Under the pieces are notes generated by a model that was not told the DNA's origin, did not search any database, and saw only the letters and a program-made list of their open reading frames with translations. This document shows, piece by piece, positions 18,252-32,408 of a DNA stretch of 64,000 nucleotides. Source of the DNA: Pyxidicoccus parkwaysis (GTDB lineage: Bacteria; Myxococcota; Myxococcia; Myxococcales; Myxococcaceae); contig NZ_CP071090.1 in the NCBI RefSeq assembly GCF_017301735.1, forward strand, positions 3,772,001 through 3,836,000. The letters run 5' to 3'. The translations under genes were made by a program, and so were the position numbers. Numbering within the stretch: position 1 is the stretch's first letter; each line of letters begins with the position of its first letter.

Positions 18252-19181
18252 TCAAGGAGGCGTGGGCGAGGGCCCGTCCGGCTTGCAGTAGGAGGGCGGC
18301 GGTCCTTTGTCATTCATCTCCACCGCGATGCTGGCGGTGGGCCGGCACGCGCGGAGCTGCTGGTCGCACTGGTAGGGCGGCTCCCGCTCGCAGTCCGCCG
18401 TCACGTTGCAGGACTTCAGCCAGTACGCCTTCGACTCTTCTTCCGGCACCCGGAGGAGCACCGAGCCCTTCTGACGGCAGTTGCTCGGCGGAGGCTCCAC
18501 AATCGCGCAGGCGCCACCGGGCCAGGGGCCGATCAGCTCGTGGATGCACACGCCGTTCGCGCCGCACTCCGCGTCCACCCGGCATGAGATTCCGAGCGGC
18601 ACGCCGCAGTCCTGGGCCGGTGCTGGCGGTTCATCGGGAGGGGGTGGACGGCACTCGAGCGGCGTCGAGACGAAGTACCAGCCCTCCGGGAGCGCGGCGC
18701 CCGTGGGCGAGTCCTGGGCCGACAGTCGCTGGGGCGCGCGAATCAACACCCGTCCCGGCGAGCCTCCGATGAGCGGCTCCGTGTCATCCCTGCGCCGGTT
18801 GCCATTCGTGTCCTGGTATGCGCCGAGCCAGGCGACGCCCACCTTTGCTCCCGAGGGACGCGTGATGAGGTGCTCGGGGCCGGGCTCGTCGAAGATGCGC
18901 AGCTCGAAGTTGCGGTAGTACTCCGCGCGGATGGCCGTGCCCTGCTGTTCGACGAACACGTCCTGCTCGCCGTAGGGCATGCCCCGGAGGCTCCAGAATA
19001 CGGCCACGCTTACGTCGGGATGCTCCGAGCCGACGTGCTCCGAGGTACCCGTCACGTTGCCCGGCACCGTGAACAGCGGCGTGCCCGAGTACGCGTCGTC
19101 AACGAGCGAGTCGCCACAGCCCAGCGCCGCGCCCACGAGCACCAGCGCGAGCCCCCGGAGGCCTGAAGTCACCACCGCCAT
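18252..19181 (-). CDS. Cysteine-rich lipoprotein, last gene of the ECF/caspase operon
   Basis: A 309-residue lipoprotein (lipobox ALGC at about residue 21). The mature chain has a beta-rich N-terminal half, then a C-terminal region of cysteine-spaced segments (CRVDAECGANGVCIHE, CNVTADCEREPPYQC) like those in many myxobacterial surface lipoproteins. GGGAGGAG sits four bases before the ATG at 19181; the start overlaps the end of the caspase gene by 13 bp. Function is unknown. Overlap with the caspase gene implies co-expression under the ECF sigma factor. Confidence 0.8.
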   Translation of the reverse strand: MAVVTSGLRGLALVLVGAALGCGDSLVDDAYSGTPLFTVPGNVTGTSEHVGSEHPDVSVAVFWSLRGMPYGEQDVFVEQQGTAIRAEYYRNFELRIFDEPGPEHLITRPSGAKVGVAWLGAYQDTNGNRRRDDTEPLIGGSPGRVLIRAPQRLSAQDSPTGAALPEGWYFVSTPLECRPPPPDEPPAPAQDCGVPLGISCRVDAECGANGVCIHELIGPWPGGACAIVEPPPSNCRQKGSVLLRVPEEESKAYWLKSCNVTADCEREPPYQCDQQLRACRPTASIAVEMNDKGPPPSYCKPDGPSPTPP

Positions 19182-20758
19182 ACGACTCCTCCCGAGCCCC
19201 ACCAGGTGAGGGGCGTCACCAGCTCGTGGCCCACCTCCACGCCGTTCTGCACCACGGCGCGCTGGACGAGGTTCGTCACGGGCCCGCCTTCCAGGCGGAG
19301 CGCGATGCCCGCGCCGAGCTGCCGCTCCACCAGCAGGATGCCGCCGAAGCCCGCGCCCCAGGAGCTCCGGTCCTGGACGCTTCGGTCCGTGTCGAAGCGC
19401 TGCTGGTGCAGCACGCCCTCGACGAAGAGGCCGAAGGCCACGCTCGCGGGCTCCAGGTCGATGAAGCGCAGTAGGGACAGGCCCAGTCCGAGCTCACTGT
19501 GACGGCGAGGCAGGAGGCCGTCCGCGCTCGTCGCGCTCACCGTCGCGCCACGCAGGCGCAGGCCCACCGAGCCCCAGTCGAAGTCGACGCCATAGCCGAG
19601 CTGGAGCTGGGGAAGGGCGCCGTCGCCCGCGAGCGACTCGCCTCGCAGCCCTGCTTCGAGCGAGAGGTTGTGCGAGTACGCCTTCGGCCCTCCGCGACGT
19701 CGCACGAGCCTGTCGTAACGGACCGTCTCGTAGGGCAACGCGGCGAGCTCCACCGCGCCCCCCGCCGTGAGCGACACCTGGTACTCGCGGTACTCGTCGG
19801 CCTTGCGCTGCTGCACGAAGTAGCTGCCGGCGGGCAGGGACAGCTCTCGCTTCTGGCCCTGCGGCGTGACTTCCGCCACCACCGGGCCTCCCTGCCGCCC
19901 CTCCATGATGAGGTAGAGCGCGGAGTCCGCCAGCCGGAGCTGACCCGTGCGCCCACGCTGACTGGCCGGTGTCGAGAGCACCAGCTCGCCGCGCCCCTTC
20001 ACCTCCCATGAATAGGTCGGGTGTTGCAGCGCCACCGTCTGGCCGCTCGAGCGCAGCGTCTGCGCGTAGGTGTAGCCGTAGGCCTCGGTCAGCGTCACGT
20101 TGCCGTCGTCATCGTGGTCCGCCGCGCCGCGCAGCGCGTTCGCCAGGTGGTGCGTGAAGAACGAGCCGCGCAGCCGGTCGGACTCCTGGCTCGCCTCGCC
20201 CGCGGCGCTGGAGGTGATGATGGCGAGGCCCTCGGTGGCCACGTGGTCCCTGAGGCTGATGTCGAAGGTCTGCGCGGTGCTGACACCCTTCACGCGCGTC
20301 ACCGTTCCGGAGCGGCACGCGTCCAGCACGAGGAGCCGCACTCCCGCTGGCGAGCCTTCCACCAGCGTCTTGATTTCCTCCAGCGGAAGCTCCGTGCGAC
20401 CCAGGTGCAGCGATGCCGCGTCCGCGTGGCCCGAGTAGAAGACGATGAGCGCGGTGGGCTGGCCGGCTCCAGCCTGGACACGGATGGCGGCATTCACGTC
20501 CTGGAGCGCGCGCCGCACGTTGGCCGCGTCCTCGCCGAGCAGCAGCAGCGTGCGCCGGGAGGAGACACCTCCTTGCTCGCGCAGCACGTCCGAGAAGAGG
20601 CGCGCGTCCTGCTCCGCGTACAGGAGGCCCACCTCACTGGCGGCGCCATCGTTGTGGCCGATGGCCACGACCCACGTCTGCTCCGGCAACGCTCTCGCTG
20701 ACAGCGGCGCGAGCAACGCGAGGACGAGTCCGAAGAGCACGCCTCGGTTCGTGCTCAT
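19169..20758 (-). CDS. Exported caspase-family (C14-like) protein with C-terminal barrel-like domain
   Basis: A 529-residue protein with a signal peptide (to about residue 23, ARALPEQT). The caspase fold covers about 28-230 with the His-Cys dyad His111 in FYSGHAD and Cys148 in LDACRSG. A canonical EF-hand loop, D214-x-D216-x-D218-G-N-V-T-x-x-E225, is visible near the end of this domain, as in calcium-activated metacaspases. After a PEGA-like linker (about 270-350) the C-terminus (370-529) consists of alternating strands and ends in WRW, suggesting an outer-membrane or surface barrel. The gene follows the anti-sigma gene with an ATGA overlap. Predicted site: periplasm or cell surface; substrates unknown. 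Confidence 0.85.
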   Translation of the reverse strand: MSTNRGVLFGLVLALLAPLSARALPEQTWVVAIGHNDGAASEVGLLYAEQDARLFSDVLREQGGVSSRRTLLLLGEDAANVRRALQDVNAAIRVQAGAGQPTALIVFYSGHADAASLHLGRTELPLEEIKTLVEGSPAGVRLLVLDACRSGTVTRVKGVSTAQTFDISLRDHVATEGLAIITSSAAGEASQESDRLRGSFFTHHLANALRGAADHDDDGNVTLTEAYGYTYAQTLRSSGQTVALQHPTYSWEVKGRGELVLSTPASQRGRTGQLRLADSALYLIMEGRQGGPVVAEVTPQGQKRELSLPAGSYFVQQRKADEYREYQVSLTAGGAVELAALPYETVRYDRLVRRRGGPKAYSHNLSLEAGLRGESLAGDGALPQLQLGYGVDFDWGSVGLRLRGATVSATSADGLLPRRHSELGLGLSLLRFIDLEPASVAFGLFVEGVLHQQRFDTDRSVQDRSSWGAGFGGILLVERQLGAGIALRLEGGPVTNLVQRAVVQNGVEVGHELVTPLTWWGSGGVVWRW

Positions 20759-21516
20759 GGCCGCAGCCCCTGCTTGTCCATGATGAACGGCGTGCTGATA
20801 CAGCCCTTGGGGCACGAGGGCGCGGTGCCGGGGCCCGTGGACTCGCAGCGCGGCGGGGCGCTGCTGTCGGGGCAGTGCACGAGGTAGAGCGTCTCGCGGC
20901 CCGGCTGCGCGTCGAGCGACACCGCGCCGGGGAGCTCGATGGCGTTGCCCGCGGACAGGTGTGTCCGTTGCTCGGGCTCGCGCGGCCAGGCGGTGTAGAG
21001 CGCTCCCGAGGACTCGACGCCGAGGACCATCACCTGGCCTTCCTGTGGCAGGTCCACGGCGAAGCGGATCCGGTCTCCTGGAGTGAAGGCGCCTCCGCTG
21101 ACCATCTCCTCCGCGTGGTCTCCCGCGAGCCGGAACACGTGCAGCGCGGGCGAGCCCTTCATGCGCGTGCCCGGGGTCTCCACCTCCGGACGCACCAGCA
21201 CGAAGACGACGGCGGCGGTGGCCGCGACGGCCAGCGGGGCGAAGTAGCGCAGCAACCGGCGGTGCAGGGGCGGGGGCTGGTCGAGCCCCGTCCGGATTCG
21301 CGCCAGCATCGCGCGTGGGTCCACGCCATCAACGGCGTCGAAGCCGGCACGGCGCTCGGACATGCGAGCGGTGCAGTCCGCGCAGCCGGCGAGGTGTTGC
21401 TCGATTTGCTGCGCGGCTTCCTTCGCGAGCTCGCCGGCATGGAGCCGGTCCAGCGACAAGTCGGACGGGCAGCCCGGGCCGCCTTGCCGCAGGGTGGTGA
21501 AGTCAGGGGGGCTCAT
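20755..21516 (-). CDS. Anti-sigma factor with zinc finger and DUF4384-like domain
   Basis: A 253-residue membrane protein. The N-terminal ZAS-type zinc finger has His41-x3-Cys45-x2-Cys48 (QHLAGCADC). One transmembrane segment follows (about 92-108), then an extracytoplasmic domain with FAVDLPQEGQVMVLGVESSGALYTAWPRE, which resembles DUF4384 sensory domains, and a short cysteine-rich C-terminus. It should bind and inhibit the ECF sigma factor encoded immediately upstream (the genes overlap by 4 bp) and release it on an envelope signal. DUF4384 modules often occur with caspase-like proteins, which fits the next gene. Confidence 0.85.
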   Translation of the reverse strand: MSPPDFTTLRQGGPGCPSDLSLDRLHAGELAKEAAQQIEQHLAGCADCTARMSERRAGFDAVDGVDPRAMLARIRTGLDQPPPLHRRLLRYFAPLAVAATAAVVFVLVRPEVETPGTRMKGSPALHVFRLAGDHAEEMVSGGAFTPGDRIRFAVDLPQEGQVMVLGVESSGALYTAWPREPEQRTHLSAGNAIELPGAVSLDAQPGRETLYLVHCPDSSAPPRCESTGPGTAPSCPKGCISTPFIMDKQGLRP

Positions 21517-22223
21517 GACCGCCTCCTTCCGAATCCGAAGAACCCGGACGCCTTGCGCTCCGGTGGCGAGTTGTTGGCTGCGGGGGCCTCGGTCGCCAGG
21601 GCGGTCCTGGCTGCGGCCCAGGCCTGGAATCGCTCGAGGAGGTTTCCCACCGTCCGCTTGGACACGCCGAGGACCTCGGCGGCTTCTTCGTGCGACATGC
21701 CGTCGAGGAAGACATAGACGGCCGCGCTGGCCTGCTTCTCATCCGCATCCGCGATGAGTCGGCGGAGGAGGACGAGGTCATCAGGGCGCACGGGCTCGGT
21801 GCGCTCCTCGGCATCTCCGGCGGCGGGCATGTGCTCCGCGTACAATTCGGCTCGGCGGGAGCGGTCTCGGATGAGGTTGAGACAGTAATGGGTGGCGATT
21901 TGATACAGCCAGGTGGTGAGCTGGCTCTGCTGCCGGAACCCCTCCGCGCCTTTGAATGCGCGGATGAAGATCTCCTGCGTTGCCTCCTCGGCGTCCGCGG
22001 GATTGCCCAATAGGCGCAGGGCCCGGCGGTAGACGCGCGGACCATGCTGGTTGAAGAGCTGGGAGAGCTGCTGTGAGTCGGCTCGGCTCACGACACCATT
22101 CGAGGGAGGGTGGGGGGCGGAGCGTAACAGTGATGACTTGCCCGGTTCGATACGCCCCCGGGACGCCTGGCTCCCCTGCGGGGCCGGCGTGTCGCTCCGG
22201 GTCTGAACTAGGATGGTCATCAT
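21513..22223 (-). CDS. ECF RNA polymerase sigma factor
   Basis: A 236-residue sigma-70 family ECF protein. Region 2 is at about 50-120 with the DAEEATQEIFIRAFK and WLYQIATHYCLNLIRDRSRR motifs. Region 4 is at about 165-210 with MSHEEAAEVLGVSKRTVGNLLERF. A 48-residue N-terminal extension precedes region 2. The two adjacent ATGs at 22223/22220 have GGGAG upstream with 9-12 bases spacing; a later GTG start without the extension is possible. It heads the operon sigma, anti-sigma, caspase, lipoprotein. Its start codon is base-to-base against the start of the divergent metzincin gene, so the two promoters must overlap the opposing genes. Confidence 0.9.
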   Translation of the reverse strand: MMTILVQTRSDTPAPQGSQASRGRIEPGKSSLLRSAPHPPSNGVVSRADSQQLSQLFNQHGPRVYRRALRLLGNPADAEEATQEIFIRAFKGAEGFRQQSQLTTWLYQIATHYCLNLIRDRSRRAELYAEHMPAAGDAEERTEPVRPDDLVLLRRLIADADEKQASAAVYVFLDGMSHEEAAEVLGVSKRTVGNLLERFQAWAAARTALATEAPAANNSPPERKASGFFGFGRRRS

Positions 22224-23493
22224 GCGAGCCGTCTCCCGCCTTCACTCCCTTGGACCCGTGGGGCTGGATTTCGGGCAAACGCGATTCGCGACACGGGTTT
22301 TTTCGTTGCTGGTCCTGGGGTTGATGGCGGCGTGCTCGGCGAGCGAGCCCCCGGATGCTTCCCCTCCTGAGGTCTGTTGGACCCCACTGGATAAGGCCGC
22401 GATTGCGAGCCCCTGGCGGGCTCCGTGGAACACGGTGGGCGAGCCTGGGCTCGATGCAGCGGGTTTGGGGACGGAGGTGGAGGTGGCGGTCGGGGCAGTG
22501 GGGACGGCGCTCCGTGTATCCGGGCTGGACGGGGCGTCGGCATGCTTCCAACTGCACGAGGTGACGGACCCGGATGGCAGCGCGTGGGTGACTCCGCCGG
22601 TTTCGGCTGAGGATTATGGGCCGTACTGCTCGAGCTGTCCGGAGCGTGTGTCCGTGGGCGTGGGCTCGGGGTTGTACGTGCTGCCCTCGGGTGACCCTGG
22701 GCCTGCTGTTGCGTCACGGCTGCGCGTTCGGGTCGCGGCTCGCGAGTGCTCGACGTTCCTTCCGACGCGGACGGGGGAGGCTCCGGCGCGGCTGCGGGTC
22801 GAGTCGTTGAATCTGGATGACGTGGCGGAGACGCGTGAAGGCGTGGTGTTGCTGGAGGTGGCCATCACCGCTGGCTCCGTGTTCCATGACGACGATGCGC
22901 CTCTTCCGGCGGTGCTGGTGCAGGCGATTACTGAGGTGAATGCGCTGCTGCGTCCGGGGCGGCTTTCGGTAAAGGCTGTTCGTGTGCGGCGCGTGGATGG
23001 AGCGGACCCGATTGAGTTCCAGCGCGGGGACTTCACTGCGCTGAACCGATTGCATGCCACGGTGCATGACTGTGACCAGGGTGGGGCAGCGCCGGATGAC
23101 GGTTGGGTGCCCGTGGTGCTCGCGGGATGTCTGCGCCTTACCGACCCGGTGTTGAAGACGTCGACCGAACCGGAGGGCTTCGTGCCGCACATCCCGGATG
23201 GACTGGCGGCGCAGGGCAGGGCGCACGGTGTCTTCATCCGGGGGCGAGATTGTCGCGAAGGCTCACAGCCTGCTGCGTGGCCGGCGGGGTATCTCGGCCG
23301 GCTCATTGCGCATGAGTTGGGGCACTACCTGGGGCTGTACCACTCCGTAGAGGAGGACGGGACGCCGGACCTCCTCGACGACACGGGCGCGGACAATTTG
23401 ATGTTCTGGCGCCCGGCTTCAGTTGCGTCACCTGCGTTCAGCGCGAGCCAGTTCCGCGTCATGCGCCGGCATCCGGCAGTGCGGTGGGAGTAG
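22222..23493 (+). CDS. Metzincin-type metalloprotease lipoprotein
   Basis: A 423-residue protein with a long n-region followed by a lipoprotein signal (VFSLLVLGLMAAC, Cys38). The extended zinc site HELGHYLGLYH (His364, Glu365, His368, His374) is followed 20 residues later by NLM, a plausible Met-turn (Met394). This is the metzincin pattern, close to pappalysin or reprolysin-like enzymes. The 250-residue N-terminal part is beta-rich and unassigned. AGGA lies eight bases before the chosen ATG; a GTG at 22258 is an alternative. It is divergent from, and touching, the ECF sigma gene, hinting at joint control. Confidence 0.82.
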   Translation: MRAVSRLHSLGPVGLDFGQTRFATRVFSLLVLGLMAACSASEPPDASPPEVCWTPLDKAAIASPWRAPWNTVGEPGLDAAGLGTEVEVAVGAVGTALRVSGLDGASACFQLHEVTDPDGSAWVTPPVSAEDYGPYCSSCPERVSVGVGSGLYVLPSGDPGPAVASRLRVRVAARECSTFLPTRTGEAPARLRVESLNLDDVAETREGVVLLEVAITAGSVFHDDDAPLPAVLVQAITEVNALLRPGRLSVKAVRVRRVDGADPIEFQRGDFTALNRLHATVHDCDQGGAAPDDGWVPVVLAGCLRLTDPVLKTSTEPEGFVPHIPDGLAAQGRAHGVFIRGRDCREGSQPAAWPAGYLGRLIAHELGHYLGLYHSVEEDGTPDLLDDTGADNLMFWRPASVASPAFSASQFRVMRRHPAVRWE

Positions 23494-27793: not shown

Positions 27794-29680
27794 CTAACGA
27801 AGCTCCTCTGCGCGGACATAACGGCCGATGAGCACCTGCAGGTCCGGCACCGTCTCGCGGTGGAACTGCTGCACCAGGGCCAGCCGCGCGGAGGCATCCG
27901 TGCTCGCGGCCGAGCCAAGCACCGAGATGAGCGCGGAGCGCGTCCGGGCATCAGACTCCGTCGCGAGGCGCGCGGCGGCCGCGGCGAGCACGGCCTGCGA
28001 GGCCGCCCGGTCCTGCTCACGCACCTGCTCGGCCAAGGTGTCCGCGATGGCCCGGCGCACCTGCGCGTCCTGCTCCTGACCCAGCCACTCGACGAGCACC
28101 GGCTCCATCGTCTCCGGCTCCATGCGGCGCCAGGCCCTGGCGGCATGTGCTCGCACCAGCGGGGACTCGTCCGAGGCATGCGTGCGGAGCGTGTCCGCGA
28201 AGCGCTCGTCGCCAGCATTGCCGATGGCGTCCAGTGCCACCGCGAGGTCTTCCGTCTCTCGCGCCGTGCGCAGCCGCGTGTCCAGCTCCTCGTGCGCGAG
28301 TTGGCTCAGCTCGGGCTGCCTCGTGTCCGTGCGGTGGGAGAGGGCGCCGAGCGCCAGCAGCGACGCGTCCGCCACCTGCCGCTCCTCCGCGTCCGTGCGG
28401 AGGCCTCGCGACTGGTCGATGAGCGCCTTCGCGGTGCGCTCCGTGGGACGCGGCACGTCCTGCAGGGCCACGGCGGCGCGCATGCGGTCCTGCGTGTTCA
28501 GCCCCCGGTCCTTCAAGGCCGCCGCGAGCCCGCTCTCCGCCGCGAGCGTCCCCGTCTTCTCCAGCGCCAGGAACAGCGCGGCGTGGATGGGCTCCGGCAG
28601 CGTCCCCCCACGCATGCCGGCGATGACGTTCGCAATCGCCTCCGGGTGCACGGACAGGTAGCTCGCCAGCCGGCTCGTGGCGTCATGCAGCCCATTGGGC
28701 CCCGCACCGAGCCGCTTCGTGAAGTCCGCCAGCGCCGCGTCGAGCGTGAGCGCCGCGAGCGCGGGCTCCGGAGCCGCGGGCAGGTCCGAGGCTCGCGTGG
28801 CACCGGCAGGCGCGCTCCCCCAGGCGAAGCGCTCCGCATCGAGCCCGGCCAGCACCGTCGGCGCGCCGCTGACGCCGTCCAGCCGCTCCACCTGCACCTC
28901 CGACGTCACGTCACTCAGCAGCCGGCTGCCCATCCACACCTTCAGGTGCTCCGCTCCACCGAGCGTGCCCACCCAGCGGCCCTTCGCGTCCAACGTCGCT
29001 CGCGTCTCCGCGGAGAGGACGTCCACGCGCATCCGGCCCCCGAGCTGCGGAGGGAGCAGGGGCAGGGTGGATGCGATGTATCGCGCATGCGTCCTCGTGA
29101 AGGACGGCGCCTCGTCCGACGCCGCCGCGTCCAGCGTGTACGTCGCATCGAACGCGCCCAGTGAGTCCTTGTGCCGGGACACCCACTGCGCGCGGCCCAG
29201 CGGCGGGAGGATGACCTCCGACGACTGGAGCATCCCCTGGAGCTGGCGCCGTGCCTCGACGTCCACGGACGGCGCGAAGGCGAAGTCTCCGAAGCGGCAG
29301 TCGCGCCCAATCTGCACCAGGAACGGCGACTCGAGGGCGGCGCGGCGGGCCGGCTCTACCTCCGCCGCGCCTCCTTCGAGCAACTGCACATCGGTCAGAG
29401 TCGCGGCAATGACCCACCCCGTCGCCGAGCGCTCCTCCAGGACGCGCCACCACATCGTGGCCTCCAGGCGGAGCTGCTGGGACGAAGCGGACTCCGACGC
29501 TTGCGCCGAGCTGCTGGCGCGAACGTGGAAGGCAAGCTCCTCTCCCGCGGCGAACCGGCAGGACAGGGGACGCCGGGCCACCGGCGACTGCTGCGTGCCC
29601 CCAGAGGGACGCACCCAGGCATAGACAGTGGCCAGCGCGAGGACGAGGGCTCCGAAGAGCACGGGCGTGCGGCGGGTCAT
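27794..29680 (-). CDS. Exported HEAT-repeat protein with lipoprotein-N-like domain
   Basis: A 628-residue protein with an N-terminal signal or anchor (LFGALVLALATVYAWV). Residues 40-270 are a beta-rich region with repeated strands (FAAGEELAFHVRASS, WVIAATLTDVQLLEG). Residues 310-620 consist of alpha-helical HEAT-like repeats (for example LVRAHAARAWRRMEPETMEPVLVEWL, QVRRAIADTLAEQ). A beta-barrel followed by HEAT helices is the layout of the vitellogenin/lipoprotein N domain, which carries lipid; homology is inferred only from this layout. It begins 17 bp after the C-type lectin lipoprotein gene, so the two form an operon. Confidence 0.75.
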   Translation of the reverse strand: MTRRTPVLFGALVLALATVYAWVRPSGGTQQSPVARRPLSCRFAAGEELAFHVRASSSAQASESASSQQLRLEATMWWRVLEERSATGWVIAATLTDVQLLEGGAAEVEPARRAALESPFLVQIGRDCRFGDFAFAPSVDVEARRQLQGMLQSSEVILPPLGRAQWVSRHKDSLGAFDATYTLDAAASDEAPSFTRTHARYIASTLPLLPPQLGGRMRVDVLSAETRATLDAKGRWVGTLGGAEHLKVWMGSRLLSDVTSEVQVERLDGVSGAPTVLAGLDAERFAWGSAPAGATRASDLPAAPEPALAALTLDAALADFTKRLGAGPNGLHDATSRLASYLSVHPEAIANVIAGMRGGTLPEPIHAALFLALEKTGTLAAESGLAAALKDRGLNTQDRMRAAVALQDVPRPTERTAKALIDQSRGLRTDAEERQVADASLLALGALSHRTDTRQPELSQLAHEELDTRLRTARETEDLAVALDAIGNAGDERFADTLRTHASDESPLVRAHAARAWRRMEPETMEPVLVEWLGQEQDAQVRRAIADTLAEQVREQDRAASQAVLAAAAARLATESDARTRSALISVLGSAASTDASARLALVQQFHRETVPDLQVLIGRYVRAEELR

Positions 29681-32259: not shown

Positions 32260-32408
32260 GGGAGACGCTCCAGGACTGCGAGTGGGGTCTCTCCGGGCCG
32301 GGAGGACCGTGCACACCCACCGCGGCCAATGGGCCTCAGCGGGGGCACACGGACTTGGACCCGTGGCGTGAAAATCCGGGCAACGCCGGTGGATGATTTT
32401 CGCGGTGA

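Follow-up and report, generated by a model that had tools for sequence, protein, structure and literature searches.

A predicted outer-membrane caspase of Pyxidicoccus parkwaysis carries a calcium-type loop and shares a basic-glycine motif with its anti-sigma factor

The functions and substrates of bacterial caspases are largely open. Sigma-70 genes have been described in four Myxococcus xanthus operons that hold four of the five metacaspases, and in other genera (Asplund-Samuelsson 2012, PMC3501461); the sigma–caspase operon itself has thus been known since 2012. No anti-sigma factor and no barrel come up in the relevant passages of that paper, and a text search of its main text finds none of the terms EF-hand, EF hand and calcium. 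In the metacaspase TbMCA2, Asp173, Asp189, Asp190 and Asp220 are the calcium ligands and Cys92, Asp95, Ser156 and Asp211 the S1 residues, according to passages of PMC4357240 that also describe gingipain RgpB as an exported, calcium-stabilised clan CD protease. Seven archaeal orthocaspases with an EF-hand motif, counted among extra N- or C-terminal domains, appear in the part of PMC6426788 that treats them. Here we describe P0001, a caspase-like protein of 529 amino acids (aa) encoded on the minus strand at 19169–20758 of a 64,000-nucleotide stretch of Pyxidicoccus parkwaysis DNA (NZ_CP071090.1, positions 3,772,001–3,836,000; hereafter the window, whose numbering and minus strand apply to all features below unless stated). 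The host genome is a single contig of 13.2 Mb, and the closest named relative at the caspase locus, Pyxidicoccus caerfyrddinensis, is 90% identical. Translation, PF00656, a structure model and Foldseek together predict for P0001 a signal peptide, a caspase fold, a beta linker and an eight-stranded barrel. As the best explanation of the locus we tentatively advance that an outer-membrane-anchored caspase cuts its own anti-sigma factor, with calcium in a structural role. This explanation draws on a loop and its conservation, an operon, shared motifs and a promoter-like element, all computed, and on folds taken from models; from these we infer calcium binding, location, substrate and the order of events.

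PF00656 matches residues 29–215 of P0001 with 39.6 bits (cut-off 21.4). We modelled the protein with AlphaFold2 from 38 aligned relatives (mean predicted local distance difference test, pLDDT, 81.9; predicted template modelling score, pTM, 0.65). In VIA-align comparisons with solved structures, which delimit the caspase fold at residues 25–262 (19973–20686), the model aligns with caspase-7 (4jr2_A; Z 23.0, 208 aligned residues, root-mean-square deviation (rmsd) 2.7, over model residues 18–262) and plant metacaspase-4 (6w8r_A; Z 22.7, 210 aligned, rmsd 2.6, over model residues 26–267). A phmmer search with the caspase domain alone found no solved close relative at E ≤ 10; a profile search of solved structures matched metacaspases, chiefly over the first half. 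Our main conservation set comprises 73 relatives pruned at 80% identity and 237 columns. In it the catalytic His111 (codon 20426–20428) and Cys148 (codon 20315–20317), which lie where the initial annotation had put them, are both invariant (73/73). By the Pfam match, the dyad and the modelled fold, P0001 belongs to Peptidase C14 (caspase-like), and proteolytic activity is predicted. The TbMCA2 S1 residues Asp95, Ser156 and Asp211 align with D51 (73/73), S109 (72/73) and D146 (73/73), and cleavage after basic residues is therefore predicted. The calcium ligands fare differently: Asp220 aligns with R155 (Arg in 65/73 and Asp in none), Asp189 with L126 and Asp190 with E127, which is variable, and Asp173 could not be placed. 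The acidic calcium site of TbMCA2 is thus absent at the assignable positions of P0001.

Residues 214–225 (DHDDDGNVTLTE; 20084–20119) form an EF-hand-type calcium loop, recognized by its pattern and conservation. The pattern used here is PROSITE PS00018 without its hydrophobic 13th position, a stretch of 12 residues. Its one match in 83,691 aa of the window's stop-to-stop frames of at least 100 aa is the P0001 loop, and the stricter DxDxDGx[ILV]xxxE appeared in 19 of 200,000 shuffles of P0001. Judged by its sequence, the loop is not due to chance. Across the 73 relatives, position 1 is always Asp, position 12 always Glu and position 8 always Val or Ile; position 5 is Asp in 71 (Asn in one, Glu in one) and position 3 is Asp, Ser or Asn in 70, with Ile, Gly or Thr in the remaining three. 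None of the 237 columns varies more than position 2, and position 11 ranks 213th. Since 80 loci from a scan of genome contigs were found partly by the loop pattern (one of two patterns), which biases loop counts, we recounted with these left out. Among the 30 remaining proteins D1, D5 and E12 are each present in 30/30, position 3 is Asp, Asn or Ser in 27/30, and position 2 is again the most variable column. Loss of the loop beside an intact dyad, the case to which the initial annotation had drawn attention, was not seen within the family at positions 1 and 12 in either set. Fixed ligands between free positions have the look of selection for a metal site, and we consider it likely, from the sequence pattern, that the P0001 loop binds calcium.

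The loop had been called canonical, which goes a little too far. Its 12 ligand-pattern residues (ligands at positions 1, 3, 5 and 12 and the hydrophobic position 8) do stand at the residues first reported. Position 13 is Ala226 rather than the hydrophobic residue of PS00018, no Pfam EF-hand model matches P0001 at E ≤ 1 (PF00656 being the sole match), and a pattern scan of P0001 finds no second loop with which this one could pair. Among the 73 relatives, 58 satisfy the first 12 positions and four satisfy all 13. A true EF-hand domain was rejected because of the missing Pfam match, Ala226 and the unpaired state. The loop had also been placed just after the caspase core; in the model it instead lies inside the fold, joining helix 200–212 to helix 223–238 as the last helix-loop-helix. 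The helix before it has 13 residues and spans ∼20 Å; the active-site loop comes ahead of this helix, which would put the two loops about that distance apart. Activation of the metacaspase type, with which the initial annotation had linked the loop, was rejected as a model for it: the loop is a different site, and the assignable TbMCA2 ligands are not kept. Other phyla were sampled through nine of the ten plasmid records with a relative (all except a second Nonomuraea plasmid). The loop is kept in three of the nine (Runella, Nonomuraea and Nostoc), and the other six have His and Cys without it. The loop-bearing Nonomuraea and Nostoc relatives (L176 and L177) have no hydrophobic N-terminus, and the loop is therefore not tied to export.

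P0001 itself does appear to be exported, as first proposed. Its N-terminus is a hydrophobic segment at the same position as in orthologs and is predicted to be a signal peptide (∼residues 1–24; 20687–20758). At the other end, residues 361–528 (19175–19678) form eight long antiparallel strands in the model, with high confidence, and the protein ends in ...GSGGVVWRW. Foldseek matches this predicted outer-membrane beta-barrel to NspA (1p4t) and OmpX (1qj9), both at E 3e-6, and to OmpA and OmpW. The last residue is F, L, W, I or Y in 79 of the 106 family members whose C-terminal length is 240–300 aa. Anchoring of P0001 in the outer membrane is accordingly predicted from the model with high confidence. 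Barrels of the OmpA type have both ends in the periplasm, and we place the caspase domain in the periplasm for this reason.

P0001 is the third gene of an operon, after an extracytoplasmic function (ECF) sigma factor, P0003 (21513–22223; PF04542 and PF08281 above cut-off), and a membrane-bound zf-HC2 anti-sigma factor, P0002 (253 aa; 20755–21516; PF13490 at 24.9 bits, cut-off 22.2, and model). The three genes overlap by four bases at each junction, P0002 with both of its neighbours. The sigma factor has sigma70 regions 2 and 4, and the zinc-finger anti-sigma factor has one membrane helix (residues 84–107, containing a hydrophobic membrane segment; 21196–21267), as in other ECF sigma/zf-HC2 pairs. 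The anti-sigma periplasmic domain is a beta-sandwich in the model; its structural matches are weak and scattered, and a family assignment for it was dropped on that account. Of 96 genomes of the family, 92 have a relative of P0001, as do 163 of the 195 in the phylum sample, and the operon is repeated across Myxococcota in many paralogs. For 84 distinct family members more than 2,200 nucleotides of upstream sequence were available; an ECF sigma gene lies upstream in 75 of these, and a sigma gene together with an H-x3-C-x2-C protein in 70.

The caspase and the anti-sigma factor share an R-x-K-G motif. In P0001 it is part of T-R-V-K-G (residues 154–158; 20285–20299), in a low-confidence linker between the caspase halves (residues 154–175, pLDDT <50). 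K157 is conserved in 73/73 relatives and R155 in 65/73, and the motif lies 6–10 residues after C148. In P0002 it is R-M-K-G (residues 118–121; 21154–21165), outside the membrane helix, where we propose a cleavage site. R-x-K-G occurs just outside the helix in 76 of 88 anti-sigma tails (46 of 54 after pruning at 60% identity), with ∼0.01 expected per tail, and K-G, alone or inside R-x-K-G, in 84 of 88 (50 of 54 pruned). In the pruned anti-sigma factors 46 of 48 occurrences of R-x-K-G start 0–29 residues past the helix. In an alignment of 41 anti-sigma rows K120 and G121 are each kept in 40 and R118 in 37, ranking 4, 5 and 10 of 221 columns in conservation among variable neighbours. Both partners have R-x-K-G in 41 of the 54 pruned pairs. 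As a control we used those zf-HC2 proteins of the same genome for which no neighbouring caspase was found. They number 26: the 28 outside the 12 PF00656 loci minus L206 and L207, which lie beside caspases that PF00656 missed. R-x-K-G is present in none of the 26 and K-G in two.

A search of the genome with the anti-sigma alignment recovered four more caspases that PF00656 had missed, for at least 16 in the genome, and PF00656-based counts of bacterial caspases may be too low in myxobacteria. The four (L242, L244, L245 and L246, at 4.86, 10.97, 12.11 and 0.79 Mb) have an intact His and Cys. Three of them belong to a divergent branch 2 that keeps His, Cys and the loop; the loop pattern matches 57 of the 60 branch-2 loci fetched, all from one family of genomes. 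Fourteen loci gave no usable anti-sigma tail. In the remaining pairs the tails carry R-G (46/46; 10/10 pruned) and never K-G, and most of the caspase linkers read SRGG, PRKAGG or PRKPGG. That the two partners change in parallel supports the view that the same type of bond is recognized. Branch-2 caspase copies with in-frame stops (G033, G071 and G061) are possible recent pseudogenes.

A conserved promoter-like element (TTGCCCGAAATCCAGCCCCACGGGTC; 22253–22278) lies upstream of the sigma gene and is kept there in 7/7 ortholog genomes (8/8 with P. parkwaysis itself). A copy with one mismatch (32358–32383) precedes P0005 (29698–32316), a C-type-lectin lipoprotein gene whose product is exported and matches PF00059 with 49.6 bits. 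The element precedes the lectin ortholog in 4/7 genomes (5/8 with P. parkwaysis), once on another contig. The genome holds three sites at no more than one mismatch: these two and one elsewhere. Because, in the window alone, at least two matches at up to three mismatches arise in 15 of 100 shuffles, the evidence for the element is its conservation across genomes, not its count. The lectin gene is a candidate target of the sigma factor.

These elements can be joined into a scheme. With the barrel as its anchor in the outer membrane, the caspase domain would lie in the periplasm. The loop most likely binds one calcium ion, which would hold together the two final helices of that fold in the caspase domain. 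Periplasmic calcium tracks the outside concentration, and the loop should therefore normally be filled, making calcium a structural cofactor and not a switch; we regard the structural role as reasonably probable. Calcium would perhaps permit complete folding only once the protein has been exported. We predict that the enzyme cuts between Lys or Arg and a following Gly, at R155-x-K157|G158 of its own linker to begin with and next at the matching motif, R118-x-K120|G121, in the anti-sigma factor's periplasmic linker. The latter would be the first cut of a regulated proteolysis that frees the sigma factor, which would then drive its own operon together with, at a minimum, one surface lectin gene. 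Cleavage of the anti-sigma factor by the caspase is, on this motif evidence, plausible though somewhat short of probable. More doubtful is the broader conjecture that myxobacteria hold repeated transmembrane switches of this design, in which a caspase of the outer membrane, folded by calcium after export, cuts itself and then an anti-sigma factor at a basic-glycine motif and so turns genes on.

Calcium could play other parts than a structural one. The initial annotation had external calcium control the protein, which would make it a signal that fills an empty loop and activates the protease when levels rise. A full EF-type loop in an exported protease would suit this, as would the C-type lectin domain of the predicted sigma target, a fold that often uses calcium. 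We nonetheless consider it improbable: the loop also occurs in L176 and L177, is single, and would sit at the far end of helix 200–212 from the active-site loop. Control by external calcium is unsupported: the assignable metacaspase ligands are missing, and some relatives carry the loop with no evident signal peptide. What survives of the initial annotation as a whole is a calcium-type loop in an exported caspase-like protein, without external-calcium control or metacaspase-type activation. The opposite view, that the loop is a leftover of descent and does not bind calcium, or that it binds magnesium to no effect, strikes us as very improbable. Although six of the nine plasmid relatives have lost the loop and kept the dyad, and three of 73 relatives have Ile, Gly or Thr at position 3, the ligand positions vary no more than the catalytic residues, the interleaved ones are among the most variable of the domain, and nearly all branch-2 loci (57/60) match the pattern as well.

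Several observations weigh against cleavage of the anti-sigma factor by the caspase. K120-G121 stands at the edge of an ordered domain (pLDDT <50 up to residue 118 and ∼95 from 121), so the motif could be the structural start of the beta domain. Nine of the 84 family members have no sigma gene upstream, and such members (L079, L080, L081 and others) also keep the linker motif: of the nine, eight linkers were read and all have K-G (R-x-K-G in seven, Q-x-K-G in one), so the presence of the motif does not strictly depend on a linked anti-sigma factor. The divergent sigma-linked caspases L046 and L050 lack both the linker motif and D146, yet their anti-sigma factors keep K-G. An anti-sigma homolog of the same genome (L243, 10.199 Mb) has TRIKG with no caspase found adjoining. 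In such GC-rich genomes the dipeptide R-G is common by itself; L244, a branch-2 caspase, is oriented divergently to its anti-sigma factor; and the periplasmic position of the caspase domain borrows its topology from OmpA-type barrels. An alternative account makes the caspase an output of the sigma factor rather than part of the switch. The sigma factor would then control a surface or periplasmic protease for cell death, remodelling or predation, with the anti-sigma R-x-K-G structural and the caspase R-x-K-G a self-processing site only. The sigma-unlinked members, most with the linker motif, and the contact of the anti-sigma motif with the ordered domain argue for it, and a death role has been suggested for the Myxococcus enzymes in the relevant passages of Asplund-Samuelsson 2012 (PMC3501461). 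Against it stand the tight translational overlap and the three genes conserved repeatedly in many paralogs, and the same motif in both partners together with the parallel branch-2 change is hard to explain without contact; we judge this account unlikely, if less so than the others considered here. Contact without cleavage is the remaining alternative: the anti-sigma motif would act as a pseudosubstrate by which the caspase is held or sensed, with the first cut left to a different protease. A shared motif implies recognition only, and in cell-surface signalling, as described in part of PMC11637429, the anti-sigma factor is protected by an outer-membrane protein; but His and Cys are each kept in 73/73 relatives, as expected of an active enzyme, and we think a pseudosubstrate rather improbable.

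Some further features of these loci and of the window deserve description. The N-terminus of L046 and L050 (at 1.77 and 0.52 Mb of the same genome) is lipobox-like and their C-terminus barrel-like; their active site reads ATCHSG, with the S1 Asp replaced. L243, which lacks the zinc-finger motif, carries its TRIKG outside the helix that spans the membrane and may be a target of cleavage in trans. The last gene of the operon, P0004 (18252–19202), encodes a cysteine-rich probable lipoprotein with no Pfam family above cut-off; its homologs adjoin the orthologous caspases, and a few paralog loci give weaker matches. A gene at 27794–29680 comes after P0005 on the same strand and has weak Vitellogenin_N and HEAT repeat matches. 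On the plus strand, a divergent gene (22213–23493) whose start overlaps that of the sigma gene has weak reprolysin/matrixin metalloprotease matches around HELGHYLGLYH.

If the proposed scheme is true, caspase proteolysis would serve as a transmembrane signal relay from the surface to transcription, rather than in cell death, and the calcium loop would add a link between export and folding. Sequence analysis here singles out a partner and a substrate, proposes which bonds are probably cut in that substrate and in the enzyme itself, and supplies both a promoter-like element and a candidate target gene. In the titles and abstracts of the open-licence PMC papers that our searches listed we found neither an outer-membrane-barrel caspase nor a caspase acting as an anti-sigma protease; that the caspase is the site-1 protease of the anti-sigma factor is our prediction from the motifs.

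Regulated proteolysis of the DegS–RseP type is known for ECF sigma/anti-sigma pairs. The locus resembles it, and TonB-dependent receptor–FecR signalling as far as described, in its ECF sigma factor, membrane anti-sigma factor and outer-membrane component. P0002, a zf-HC2 protein, has no FecR match and P0001 no TonB-receptor match in Pfam, and the locus differs from cell-surface signalling in that the predicted outer-membrane component is itself a caspase-type protease. Gingipain RgpB prefers a basic P1 residue; like P0001 it is an exported clan CD protease, but it belongs to another family with other calcium sites, and we set the two apart by description. P0001 resembles the calcium-activated metacaspases (TbMCA2, AtMC4) in fold (6w8r_A, Z 22.7) and S1 residues, whereas its loop is a site distinct from that of TbMCA2, which it does not keep. 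With EF-hand and EF-hand-like loops (Dx[DN]xDG; Rigden 2011, PMC3123361) it shares the ligand pattern and, in the model, a helix-loop-helix, but its loop is single and inside a caspase fold; the word ‘caspase’ has no occurrences in PMC3123361. The archaeal orthocaspases, as far as PMC6426788 describes them, likewise combine a caspase with an EF-hand motif; in P0001 the loop is instead inside the fold and family-wide in the outer-membrane branch. With the other prokaryotic caspase homologs (C14, PF00656), as characterised in the relevant parts of PMC3501461, P0001 shares the His/Cys dyad, the caspase fold and the sigma-70 operon link, and it differs from them by its predicted barrel, an anti-sigma partner with a matching motif and a family-wide calcium-type loop.

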